NCBI GenBank assembly: GCA_949710005.1
Contig: OX453284.1
Span: 5,424,235-5,488,234, forward strand
Length of the DNA stretch: 64,000 nucleotides
Source of the DNA: Ricordea florida
Lineage: Eukaryota; Cnidaria; Anthozoa; Corallimorpharia; Ricordeidae
Direction: 5' to 3'
Below, in pieces: positions 44,768-64,000 of this stretch. The position numbers were made by a program, and so were the translations under genes. Positions within the stretch are counted from its first letter, which is position 1, and every line of letters starts with the position of its first letter. The notes under the pieces are model-generated. The model worked only from the letters and a program-made list of their open reading frames with translations. It searched no databases and was not told the origin of the DNA.

Positions 44768-45579
44768 TGTATATATCAATCAATAACCCACGCCGTCTGT
44801 ACTGCAGATAGCGTTCGTGGACCACAAGTATTTTATCTCCTCTCCTTGTCTTTCGCTTTAAGTCGCGCTACCTGAGGACGATTCACAAAACAGCTGCGCA
44901 TAAATTTTCGACAAATTCACGCTGCTGAAACATTCCGTGACTATCGCGCGGATCTGTTTTCGCCCAGCTAGTTTAACCCCCCCCCCCCCCCCCCCACCTA
45001 ATTATTTGCAGAAACCTCATTCGTTAGTCATGCGTAACACCGAAAAACAACACAAACCTCCCTTTATGGCTGTACAACGCTCCAACTTAAATTGTACTGC
45101 AGATATGAATGACATTTGACCGGCACGGTTTAATGTGGTTATCACTTTTAACTTTGAAAACGTATTGAGTAACGCATCTCACCAGTCAGGGCATTTAACG
45201 AGGTGGCCTTCCAAATGATAAAAGTTGCGTCGCGTTGAACGACGAGGTCTCGTCACATCGCCGGGATGAAGGGAGACAGAGTCAACGCTGTACTTTTCCT
45301 CAACCTGCATAAGGTTCAATTTCCCCTTTGACAAATAGCTGACTTGAAATACATCCTATTCGGTTTCCAATCCTTGACCAGCCAGGCTCTTGTTACATGC
45401 TAAATAGTCAACCACTTGCCAAGTCGTTAGGAGAAAATGTATAGGGAAAAGTTGTTTCCACGTTGAAGAAAACGATTTCCCTATACATTTTCTCCTAACG
45501 ACTTGCAAAGTTTGCCCCCTGGCGATCCCAGAAGCCATGGAGCGTAAAACGGGATCCGATTACTGCAAATCATCCATTC
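44768..45579. other. GPCR 5' flank
   Basis: No coding frame. Holds a poly-C run at about 44977-44996 and the perfect hairpin at 45420-45505. The foldback element begins immediately after. Confidence 0.5.
45420..45505. repeat. Perfect 30-bp hairpin with 26-base loop
   Basis: Bases 45420-45449 (starting CAAGTCGTTAGGAGAAAATG) are exactly complementary to 45476-45505. The size would allow a small-RNA precursor, or it may be a short palindromic transposon remnant. No target-site duplication is visible. Confidence 0.8.
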
Positions 45580-45588
45580 GTCATGAAT
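45580..45588 (+). repeat. 9-bp target-site duplication, left copy
   Basis: GTCATGAAT directly abuts the left end of the foldback element; an identical copy abuts the right end at 48275-48283. Confidence 0.85.
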
Positions 45589-45639
45589 GGGCGACCCTAA
45601 AACGCGGAACGACGGAATGGCGGAACGGCGGAATGGCGG

Positions 45640-45955
45640 AAAATAACCCCGAATCCTAAAAGACGGAACGGCGGAAAATTACTGCAAACCCTAAAAGACG
45701 GAATGGCGGAAAATTGCCGCGAATCCTAAAAGACGGAACGGCGGAAAATTACTGCAAACCCTAAAAGACGGAATGGCGGAAAATTACTGCAAACCCTAAA
45801 AGACGGAACGGCGGAAAATAACCCCGAATCCTAAAAGATGGAACGGCGGAAAATTACTGCAAACCCTAAAAGACGGAATGGCGGAAAATTGCTGCGAATC
45901 CTAAAAGACGGAACGGCGGAAAATTACTGCAAACCCTAAAAGGCGGAATAGCAAA
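45640..45955. repeat. 35-bp tandem array in the left arm
   Basis: About nine units of ACCCTAAAAGACGGAATGGC plus GGAAAATTACTGCAA, alternating A(C/T)GGCGG variants with AAACCC or GAATCC joints. The mirrored array in the right arm lies at about 47910-48225. Confidence 0.9.
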
Positions 45956-45987
45956 AAAAATGACAAAAGAATAAAATAATAATAGTA

Positions 45988-46041
<54 letters not shown>

Positions 46042-46389
46042 GAGGAATAAAATTACACTTAACAACTTCATGTATGTGTTAATCGTCAATTGGAATTTTA
46101 AACTTGCTCACTCCAAAGATCTGATTCTTCACCCGAAATCTCACCTGCTTGGAACAAAAAAAAAATCATGCATCCTCTCATAAGAAAACAAAATATGCAT
46201 TTTTAACACAGAGCGAAATGATTCAATAAAACCCCTGGGGCTGCGGCATTAAATGTAAAATGTAAATGTGGCTGTGACGTATGAAGGAGGGAAATCCAAA
46301 TGAAGACGGTGGGACTCAAACAATGTTTTTACAGCTTATATTTTCACTTTCTAAAGTGGAGGAAATTAACTGGAGGAAAAGCAAACGAA

Positions 46390-47247
46390 TCAAGCCTCCA
46401 TGCAATAGCCTGTTCGCGTGACAACGGAAGTGCTATCATTTAAATCCGGATTTATTAGCACAAATAAGAGCATACCTAGGGCCCAAACATCCACAGCTTT
46501 TAGGTCCTCTAAGGACAGCGATGATCCGCTTTGACGGAAAAGTTCCGGTGCTCGATAAGCGGGAGTTCCCCGGACAATATTTCTTGTCACCATGCGGCAG
46601 ACACTGTTAGTCTGGTTTATGGCTGAGCGGCTTTCTCCAAAATCTGCAAGCTTGCAAATTATTGGCCTTGTCTGGAACATCTGCTCAACTTCTTGTTCGT
46701 CCTTTAAAGCACAATAGTGTTGGTTGGAGACAAGCACATTGGCTGGCTTGATGTCACGGTGGACGATCTCAAGGGCATGCAGATGTGCAAGTCCTGCCGC
46801 CGTTTCTCGGGCGATCCTTTCTTGAAAGGCAAACTGTTCGACTGCCTTATTGGAATGGATGTACTGAAGAAATTTATCAAGGCTGCTCACCTTTTGTGAT
46901 ACTCCGAATGGAGCAAAGTCGAAGTACAAATATTCGAGCATCATTGCGCACGGTTCGATGCTAGCGGCTTTGAACTTAACGACATGTTCACTTGTGATAC
47001 CTTGAAGAATCTTCGCTTCTTTAAGAAACAGTCGCTTTTCATTGTCCTCGTCACTCAATAATTTCTTGATCACGACCTTCTCCCCCTTCGCTTTTGCAAC
47101 AAAAACCAATCCAAAGGAGCCACGGCCGATTGTCTCCTCCTTGTCTTGTAGAAGACTCCAGTCAAACAGTGTTAGGCCCGTATAATCTTCGATAGAGGGT
47201 TTTTCGGAATTTACCCTCCCATTTAGGGAGGGCAATTTAAAAGCCAT
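46390..47247 (-). CDS. Truncated protein kinase captured in the foldback element
   Basis: A 285-residue frame from ATG at 47247 (an upstream TTG is ignored). It carries GRGSFG glycine loop, VVIKK lysine, HRDIKPANV catalytic loop, LADFGE metal site, RGTPAYRAPE activation end and VDVWALGM of helix F, so all catalytic residues are present. It stops soon after FVLINPDL: the C-lobe helices G-I are missing, and about the last 17 residues plus the stop codon are encoded by the inverted arm. Expected catalytic competence is therefore low. Alternatively a GGTATGCT donor after ALG (near 46474) could splice to a lost exon. It resembles TKL-like kinases expanded in cnidarians; subfamily uncertain. Confidence 0.7.
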   Translation of the reverse strand: MAFKLPSLNGRVNSEKPSIEDYTGLTLFDWSLLQDKEETIGRGSFGLVFVAKAKGEKVVIKKLLSDEDNEKRLFLKEAKILQGITSEHVVKFKAASIEPCAMMLEYLYFDFAPFGVSQKVSSLDKFLQYIHSNKAVEQFAFQERIARETAAGLAHLHALEIVHRDIKPANVLVSNQHYCALKDEQEVEQMFQTRPIICKLADFGESRSAINQTNSVCRMVTRNIVRGTPAYRAPELFRQSGSSLSLEDLKAVDVWALGMLLFVLINPDLNDSTSVVTRTGYCMEA

Positions 47248-47789
47248 AGAATTCAACAATTACGACAAGCTATAGTCTACTTAAATATCGAATACAAAAT
47301 TTCTCTGCACGTGGCGCGAGTGTAATTGCGACGTGGCGATTTCTATGCCAGCCGTCGGGTCAATTATCTTTGGTAAAACGTGTTAGTGTGAGTTAGTTAA
47401 TGATAGCACTTCCGTTGTCACGCGAACAGGCTATTGCATGGAGGCTTGATTCGTTTGCTTTTCCTCCAGTTAATTTCCTCCACTTTAGAAAGTGAAAATA
47501 TAAGCTGTAAAAACATTGTTTGAGTCCCACCGTCTTCATTTGGATTTCCCTCCTTCATACGTCACAGCCACATTTACATTTTACATTTAATGCCGCAGCC
47601 CCAGGGGTTTTATTGAATCATTTCGCTCTGTGTTAAAAATGCATATTTTGTTTTCTTATGAGAGGATGCATGATTTTTTTTTTGTTCCAAGCAGGTGAGA
47701 TTTCGGGTGAAGAATCAGATCTTTGGAGTGAGCAAGTTTAAAATTCCAATTGACGATTAACACATACATGAAGTTGTTAAGCGTAATTT

Positions 47790-47797
47790 TATTCCTC

Positions 47798-47875
<78 letters not shown>

Positions 47876-47890
47876 TACTATTATTATTTT
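47790..47890. repeat. (ATT)n microsatellite in the right arm
   Basis: The right arm has a longer ATT tract than the mirrored AAT tract in the left arm (about 45975-46040). The poly-tyrosine frames across both are artefacts. Confidence 0.9.
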
Positions 47891-48274
47891 ATTCTTTTGT
47901 CATTTTTTTTGCTATTCCGCCTTTTAGGGTTTGCAGTAATTTTCCGCCGTTCCGTCTTTTAGGATTCGCAGCAATTTTCCGCCATTCCGTCTTTTAGGGT
48001 TTGCAGTAATTTTCCGCCGTTCCATCTTTTAGGATTCGGGGTTATTTTCCGCCGTTCCGTCTTTTAGGGTTTGCAGTAATTTTCCGCCATTCCGTCTTTT
48101 AGGGTTTGCAGTAATTTTCCGCCGTTCCGTCTTTTAGGATTCGCGGCAATTTTCCGCCATTCCGTCTTTTAGGGTTTGCAGTAATTTTCCGCCGTTCCGT
48201 CTTTTAGGATTCGGGGTTATTTTCCGCCATTCCGCCGTTCCGCCATTCCGTCGTTCCGCGTTTTAGGGTCGCCC

Positions 48275-48283
48275 GTCATGAAT
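48275..48283 (+). repeat. 9-bp target-site duplication, right copy
   Basis: GTCATGAAT, identical to 45580-45588. Confidence 0.85.
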
Positions 48284-54746: not shown

Positions 54747-54840
54747 TTATTGCACTACATTACGGTTACTGGCTTTAACACACTACATAAAATGGTCACA
54801 CTGCTTCGTACTATTCACAACTGAGCAACTCTGTATAAAA

Positions 54841-55120
54841 GTTAGAACCACACTGTATAGTAAAACAAACAGTAGCACAGTACAGTACTGTTCAGTAGCT
54901 TTACAAAGAATGGTCACACTGCATGAGTTTGATCCACAGATGAAGAAGTTAGAACCACACTGTATAGTAAAACAAACAGTAGCACAGTACAGTACTGTTC
55001 AGTAGCTTTACAAAGAATGGTCACACTGCATGAGTTTGATCCACAGATGAAGAAGTTAGAACCACACTGTATAGTAAAACAAACAGTACCACAGTACAGT
55101 ACTGTTCAGCAGCAATTTCT
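54841..55120 (-). repeat. 107-bp tandem repeat, array 2
   Basis: GTTAGAACCACAC starts at 54841, 54948 and 55055, an exact 107-base period with near-identical units. It is the reverse complement of the family in arrays 1, 3 and 4. Confidence 0.95.
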
Positions 55121-63619: not shown

Positions 63620-64000
63620 TGGCTAGACAATGAATGAAGGAGGTGACCATTTTATGGAAAGTTACTGAAACTGAAGTATTGTACTGTGGTACTGTATGCT
63701 TTACTATATAGTGTGGTTCTAACATTTTCATCCCTGGATCAAACCATGCAGAGTGACCATTTTTTGAAATGCTACTGAACAGTACTGTACTGTGGTACTG
63801 TTTGTTTTACTTTACAGTGTGGTTCTAGCTTTTTCATCTGTGGATAAAACCGTGCAGTGCGGTGACCATTCTTTGTAAAGCTACTGAACAGTGCTGTACT
63901 GTGATAAAGTTTGTTTTACTATACAGTGTGGTTCTAGCTTTTTCATCTGTGCATAAAACCGTGCAGTGCGGTGACCATTCTTTGTAAAGCTACTGAACCG
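63620..64000 (+). repeat. About 109-bp tandem repeat, array 4 (runs off the window)
   Basis: At least 3.5 units; GGTGACCATTCTTTGTAAAG recurs at 63861 and 63970 (period 109). Same family as arrays 1-3. The last two units are the most alike, so the array is probably still growing or being homogenised. Confidence 0.9.

Follow-up and report, generated by a model that had tools for sequence, protein, structure and literature searches.

A mobile foldback element in Ricordea florida, probably derived from a Mutator-like transposon with its own protein kinase gene

We report a foldback element in the genome of the corallimorpharian Ricordea florida that is best explained, with good though not full confidence, as a non-autonomous derivative of a Mutator-like DNA transposon, the full-length relatives of which code for a fusion of a protein kinase with a second domain and, after it, a DDE-type transposase. 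The kinase fragment held in the loop of the element is probably the transposon family's own gene, and not a recently stolen host gene. This interpretation draws on the structure of the element, on a second insertion of the same rearranged unit elsewhere in the genome, and on the recurrent arrangement of kinase, second domain and transposase at diverged loci.

Architecture of the element

The window, by which we mean the whole 64-kb stretch of DNA analysed, contains a transposed unit of 2686 bp (45589-48274) with termini GGGCGACCC/GGGTCGCCC. A previous reading, made from the sequence only, had proposed a complete unit with defined ends, a perfect 9-bp duplication on both sides and near-identical inverted arms of about 0.85 kb carrying 35-bp arrays, and all of these proposals were borne out. 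The flanking 9-mer GTCATGAAT occurs just twice in the window with both strands counted (45580-45588 and 48275-48283), and the first 17 bases of the unit (GGGCGACCCTAAAACGC, allowing up to three mismatches) match twice, at the two ends of the unit and with a chance mean of 0.01. The arms measure 852 bp (45589-46440) and 876 bp (47399-48274), each has an array of 9.1 units, and they differ by one substitution (46057/47782) and a 24-base indel in an AAT microsatellite, the other mismatch given by the aligner falling in the loop. The unit thus combines the long near-identical inverted arms, internal tandem repeats and short loop of a foldback element. Its features are as follows.

45580..45588, no strand: target-site duplication, left, 9 bp GTCATGAAT
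45589..46440, plus strand: left arm (852 bp), in which the 5' end of the element is repeated in inverted form at the position expected for the 3' end; in 25 of 27 copies this position is taken by a unique tail of at most 402 bases and a short 3' end
45629..45948, plus strand: 35-bp tandem array of the left arm, 9.1 units
45970..46041, plus strand: AAT microsatellite of the left arm, 24 bases less than that of the right arm
46440..46441, no strand: rearrangement junction, at which kinase codons ...NPDL pass into the inverted 5' arm; comparison with the unrearranged copy L049 shows an AA microhomology of 2 bases
46441..47398, minus strand: loop, made up of the kinase coding start and the 5' leader
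46390..47259, minus strand: kinase open frame (ATG at 47247); the kinase part is 46441-47247 (269 codons) and the remainder to the stop is arm sequence
47399..48274, minus strand: right arm (876 bp), formed by the original 5' end of the element with its leader region, in the same order as in L049 and other copies
47798..47893, minus strand: AAT microsatellite of the right arm
47915..48234, minus strand: 35-bp tandem array of the right arm, 9.1 units
48275..48283, no strand: target-site duplication, right, 9 bp GTCATGAAT

The units of the 35-bp arrays are likely candidates for transposase-binding repeats. A search of the genome with the joined flanks of the insertion (40 of 1257 candidates scored) returned the two flanks themselves and an abundant repeat starting about 100 bases to the right, and no empty paralogous site among them. 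A near-palindromic stretch (45414-45511; self-match to the opposite strand of 86%) ends about 70 bases to the left of the insertion and may be a small foldback repeat.

The minus-strand frame of the loop (46390-47259) matches the Pfam Pkinase profile (1.5e-32, positions 3-192 of 263), and its translation contains GRGSFG, VVIKK, a helix-C Glu, HRDIKPAN, DFG, APE and DVWALG, which we take to be the kinase motifs. The catalytic motifs are accordingly intact up to helix F and the loop holds no transposase, as judged from a Pfam search and from the open frames that reach 110 aa, both in agreement with the previous reading. Immediately after ...INPDL the frame enters arm sequence and reads on as NDSTSVVTRTGYCMEA until its stop, leaving the kinase without the C-lobe beyond helix F; a kinase truncated in this manner is probably inactive.

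Comparison of the window kinase with that of L049 revealed 13 synonymous and 21 non-synonymous changes (dN/dS 0.45), and values against other copies ranged from 0.27 to 0.54 where more than 15 changes were counted, ratios that rest on small numbers of changes. Since decay in dead copies raises dN/dS, these values suggest that the kinase was probably coding and under selection as the element's lineages diverged. A stop at codon 72 was present in 25 of the 32 kinase alignments longer than 100 bases among the fetched copies, and most copies are therefore dead.

The transposon family and its rearranged layout

When the opening bases of the arm (with a few flanking bases) were used as a query against the host genome of 538 Mb, as had been suggested from the window sequence, 149 matches were obtained (40 of 137 candidates scored), which established the existence of a family: identical 9-bp flanks were found in 21 of the 27 two-ended copies including the window (20 of 26 without it), and the kinase start is common to nearly all fetched copies. 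The six copies without identical 9-bp flanks comprise L024, with an 8-bp duplication; L058 and L051, matching at 8 and 7 of 9 positions; the two adjacent copies of L010, sharing their outer 9-bp flanks; and L054, with no duplication. Since selection favoured the strongest matches to either the arm end or the loop, the copies do not constitute a random sample. L049 was withdrawn from the two-ended count (reducing 27 fetched copies to 26) because its left 'end' is a chance match within a transposase remnant, which also rules it out as a complete 4.9-kb element. The 9-bp duplication falls within the 8-11 bp of Mutator-like elements (MULEs), and the terminal inverted repeats are long, with 106-382 aligned positions at 89-95% identity in 25 ordinary copies and about 850 in the two foldbacks.

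Two of the fetched loci have composite structures. At L010 (502-5153, C3) two family copies lie 20 bases apart within common outer 9-bp flanks (ACCAGAGAT), as if they had moved or formed as one unit. At L050 (545-3784, C11) a 1079-aa open frame, which by eye resembles a non-LTR reverse transcriptase, splits the 5' arm of a family copy that holds a longer kinase piece.

The ordinary layout, observed in 25 of the 27 copies, opens with the 5' end and a kinase-derived start; next come a unique tail, 402 bases at its longest, and finally a short 3' end. In the remaining two, the window unit and a copy on C4 (L009), the 3' end is replaced by the inverted 5' end. These two copies have a common junction and different target duplications (GTCATGAAT in the window and TTCTGAATA on C4). 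The rearranged unit must therefore itself have transposed, and the foldback element is mobile after rearrangement. The C4 copy lacks loop bases ~565-872 through an internal deletion. The near-identity of the arms had been ascribed either to recent movement or to active arm conversion. The first part of that proposal stands, in that the unit is recently formed, mobile and present as a second insertion; arm conversion was dropped as unneeded, because the unique parts of the arms are as alike between the window and C4 as they are within each copy.

Inverted pairs of the leader region were detected at three loci, in the window, on C4 and on C13 (40 scored of 65 candidate places). The members of the C13 pair lie 17 kb apart, have other breakpoints and enclose a provirus of Polinton/Maverick type; we infer that they belong to one copy. 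The corresponding region (L035/L036, C13:9058000-9077800) contains a DNA polymerase, an integrase and other long frames, named by eye, as in Polinton/Maverick-like proviruses.

Origin of the kinase gene

The kinase in the loop had been read as a case of gene capture, for which alignment to the host kinome should disclose a parent gene. Our results do not support a recent capture. All 40 scored loop-like places (of 59 candidates, the window included and two being halves of the C13 copy) adjoin the element's own arm sequence, so that no donor outside the family and no host parent was found among them. Because no donor was found and kinases lie upstream of transposases at several diverged loci, fresh capture of a host gene is improbable.

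The relationship between the kinase and the family is best seen in L049 (C8), a decayed longer copy in which the family's 5' end and leader are followed by a kinase that runs past the junction point of the window unit. The following frame of L049 matches the kinase C-lobe and beyond of an intact protein encoded at another locus, L064 (BLASTP 3e-15), the C-lobe piece alone going unrecognised by Pfam, and the next frame matches the L064 second domain (1e-30). Transposase remnants lie downstream of kinase and second domain, all on one strand; their match to PF10551 (E 0.036, positions 1-96 of 99), scores 14.9 bits against a Pfam cut-off of 27.6 and is thus weakly MULE-like, and the window copy has no transposase. 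L049 lacks a 3' end. A copy on C11 lacks the kinase N-lobe; its C-lobe and second domain are colinear with those of L049 (79-90%), and the 3' tail and 3' end typical of the family lie on that strand too, farther downstream and beyond a stretch of withheld sequence. The homology of this copy to L049 ends before the transposase. Combined, L049 and the C11 copy locate the kinase gene between the two ends of the family, although no single copy shows everything: among the copies examined, none has both ends together with an uninterrupted kinase and a transposase.

Querying the genome with the window kinase returned several full-length kinases 43-51% identical to it, in open frames of up to 600 aa, along with weaker matches. 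The L064 protein, an intact 600-aa frame of kinase and second domain, is 47% identical to the window kinase over 279 positions; the 6 kb around it contain no long terminal inverted repeat, though an element there could be longer. A query with the L049 transposase remnant matched 59 places. To quantify linkage, 89 kinase places (from 94 of 143 matches, those left out being mainly second and short N-terminal pieces) were compared with 58 transposase places. Seven kinase places, one of them L049 as the source of the query, have a transposase of the L049 type downstream on the same strand within 12 kb, at distances of 3.9-10.9 kb, and two pairs show other arrangements, giving a same-strand bias of 6 to 2 without L049. 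Random scatter yielded a mean of 0.06 downstream pairs and at most 2 in 2000 trials, against the 7 observed, in a uniform model that ignores transposon clustering and uses guessed sizes for C12 and C16. As a control, none of 48 PF10551 places lies within 15 kb of 65 kinase places or within 12 kb of the second domain; this set and the strand bias answer the concern over clustering in part only. The homologues of the L049 transposase overlap none of the 48 PF10551 places, and a 45-residue transposase query matched only itself.

In the six linked pairs other than L049, where linkage is known from match positions, the kinases are 43-48% identical to that of the window and two of the transposase matches are weak (8e-4 on C4 and 3e-5 on C1). 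Linked loci include C8:16867701-16873515, C8:19704488-19712481, C15:8252336-8264024 and C4:18804203-18811854. The second domain, with L064 as the query, lies 0.65-1.6 kb behind the kinase at 20 of 34 places (from 37 matches), and at seven places the transposase follows it within 12 kb on that strand; a matched kinase lies in front at six of these (L049 and five others). Searches with the second domain gave nothing credible in Pfam, PDB sequences or PHROGs, a 20-residue match to designed PPR proteins included; its motifs give the impression of a cysteine-protease-like pattern. NCBIfam yielded general kinase matches alone, far below cut-off. No relatives of the window kinase, the 35-bp repeat or the L064 protein were found in viral contigs. 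Open frames of 1118, 1155 and 1979 aa (C1:25436633, C5:19636513 and C8:11112538) have distant matches to kinase (31%) and second domain (27%) together, and are perhaps longer fusion proteins of the same kind.

The main competing explanation, which we regard as unlikely and yet the most serious of the alternatives, is that an older element captured a host gene for the kinase and second domain once, in the manner of a Pack-MULE, and then amplified it, the nearby transposase remnants belonging to other transposons. Capture by a foldback element has been published in Drosophila (Ssk-FB4, PMC8277862), and the intact 600-aa L064 frame without visible long inverted repeats in 6 kb could be read as such a host gene. 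The same explanation would account for the 82 of 89 kinase places, many of them dead family copies, that have no such transposase downstream within 12 kb, and for the 49 of 58 transposase places, including most of the best-scoring ones, for which neither strand has a kinase place within 12 kb; the pair is therefore not always together, or one partner is often lost or goes undetected. Against it, the 40 scored loop candidates (of 59) include no donor outside the family, the order of kinase, second domain and transposase on one strand recurs at several diverged loci, and in L049 the 5' end of the family itself is followed by the kinase, the second domain and a transposase remnant.

On the reading that we prefer, the foldback would have arisen when a parent element was cut short as copying switched from the kinase gene back to the element's own 5' leader at the AA microhomology, a switch that would have replaced the 3' end by the inverted 5' end. 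A transposase from another copy would then cut and insert the unit, giving rise to the 9-bp duplications; this is still possible because both termini keep the end motif and the 35-bp repeats. The kinase of intact relatives may modify the transposase or host factors. An evenly balanced proposition, to our minds, is that a transposon equipped with a kinase gene could use phosphorylation to switch its transposase or the host's factors for repair and silencing, with foldback derivatives arising upon its rearrangement.

The unit might also act as a silencer, transcription across its inverted 5' ends producing a long hairpin RNA that would feed small RNAs against the parent family. The 852-base arms are almost perfectly complementary and hold the leader region common to family copies, and the maize Mu killer locus reportedly provides a precedent for hairpin RNA of this kind; we consider this role, which is compatible with the derivation from a kinase-bearing transposon, highly improbable. 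Misassembly of the inverted arm, suggested by near-identical arms containing simple repeats, is hardly credible given the perfect 9-bp duplication of the window unit, the one base and 24 microsatellite bases by which the arms differ and, above all, the C4 insertion that contradicts it, which has this junction too, carries a duplication of its own (TTCTGAATA) and has undergone an internal deletion.

Relation to known elements

There are precedents for foldback elements that combine tandem repeats with duplications of 8-10 bp (PMC4079207, PMC8277862), and for MULEs with proteases or SET domains (PMC2528002, PMC6446971). The window unit resembles Drosophila FB4 and Ssk-FB4 (PMC8277862) in its long, repetitive terminal repeats (about 700 bp there), duplications of 9-10 bp and central gene. 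Ssk-FB4, a Pack-MULE, also has a 2-bp AA microhomology at one breakpoint and has moved after rearrangement, as here, but its central gene is the captured host gene Ssk, whereas the kinase appears native to full-length relatives. According to Tan and others, Pack-MULEs are absent from 100 animal reference genomes, with one found in fly populations (PMC8277862). Rehavkus (PMC6446971) likewise combines a 9-bp duplication with a minisatellite at the terminal repeat; it is described from arthropods and annelids only and has a PHD-finger transposase, while here arrays occur in both ends and the transposase was not seen whole. The Tetris foldback of Drosophila virilis (PMC4079207) has long arms with tandem repeats, 8-10 bp duplications and copies without transposase, but its units are of about 220 bp and its middle has no apparent coding capacity.

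An additional enzyme domain has parallels in the ULP1 protease of KI-MULE (PMC2528002) and in the OTU domain of MuDR-6_HM and SET domain of Phytophthora MULEs (PMC6446971). The word 'kinase' is absent from the main text of PMC2528002 and PMC6446971, and a literature search by title and abstract, with most subscription journals and Repbase outside its scope, found no report of a kinase-bearing transposon. If confirmed, our interpretation would add protein kinases to the proteases and other enzymes that Mutator-like transposons carry, and annotated kinases in the neighbourhood of such elements in related genomes would have to be reinterpreted as genes of the transposon. It also cautions against assuming that every gene within an element without transposase was captured from the host. 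The junction shared by the window and C4 copies offers a clean case of foldback formation, in which an inverted 5' end replaces the 3' end and the product then moves.

The window contains other repetitive sequences. A satellite-like unit of ~107-109 bp occurs at 54839-55113 and, in opposite orientation, at 63642-63998 (consensus units compared by eye). Between 51574 and 54113 lies a further, piggyBac-like element, with a 596-aa open transposase frame (DDE_Tnp_1_7, 6.4e-84) enclosed by perfect 18-base inverted repeats (TTAACCCTTTGGAGCCCA, TTAA target included); it looks intact.
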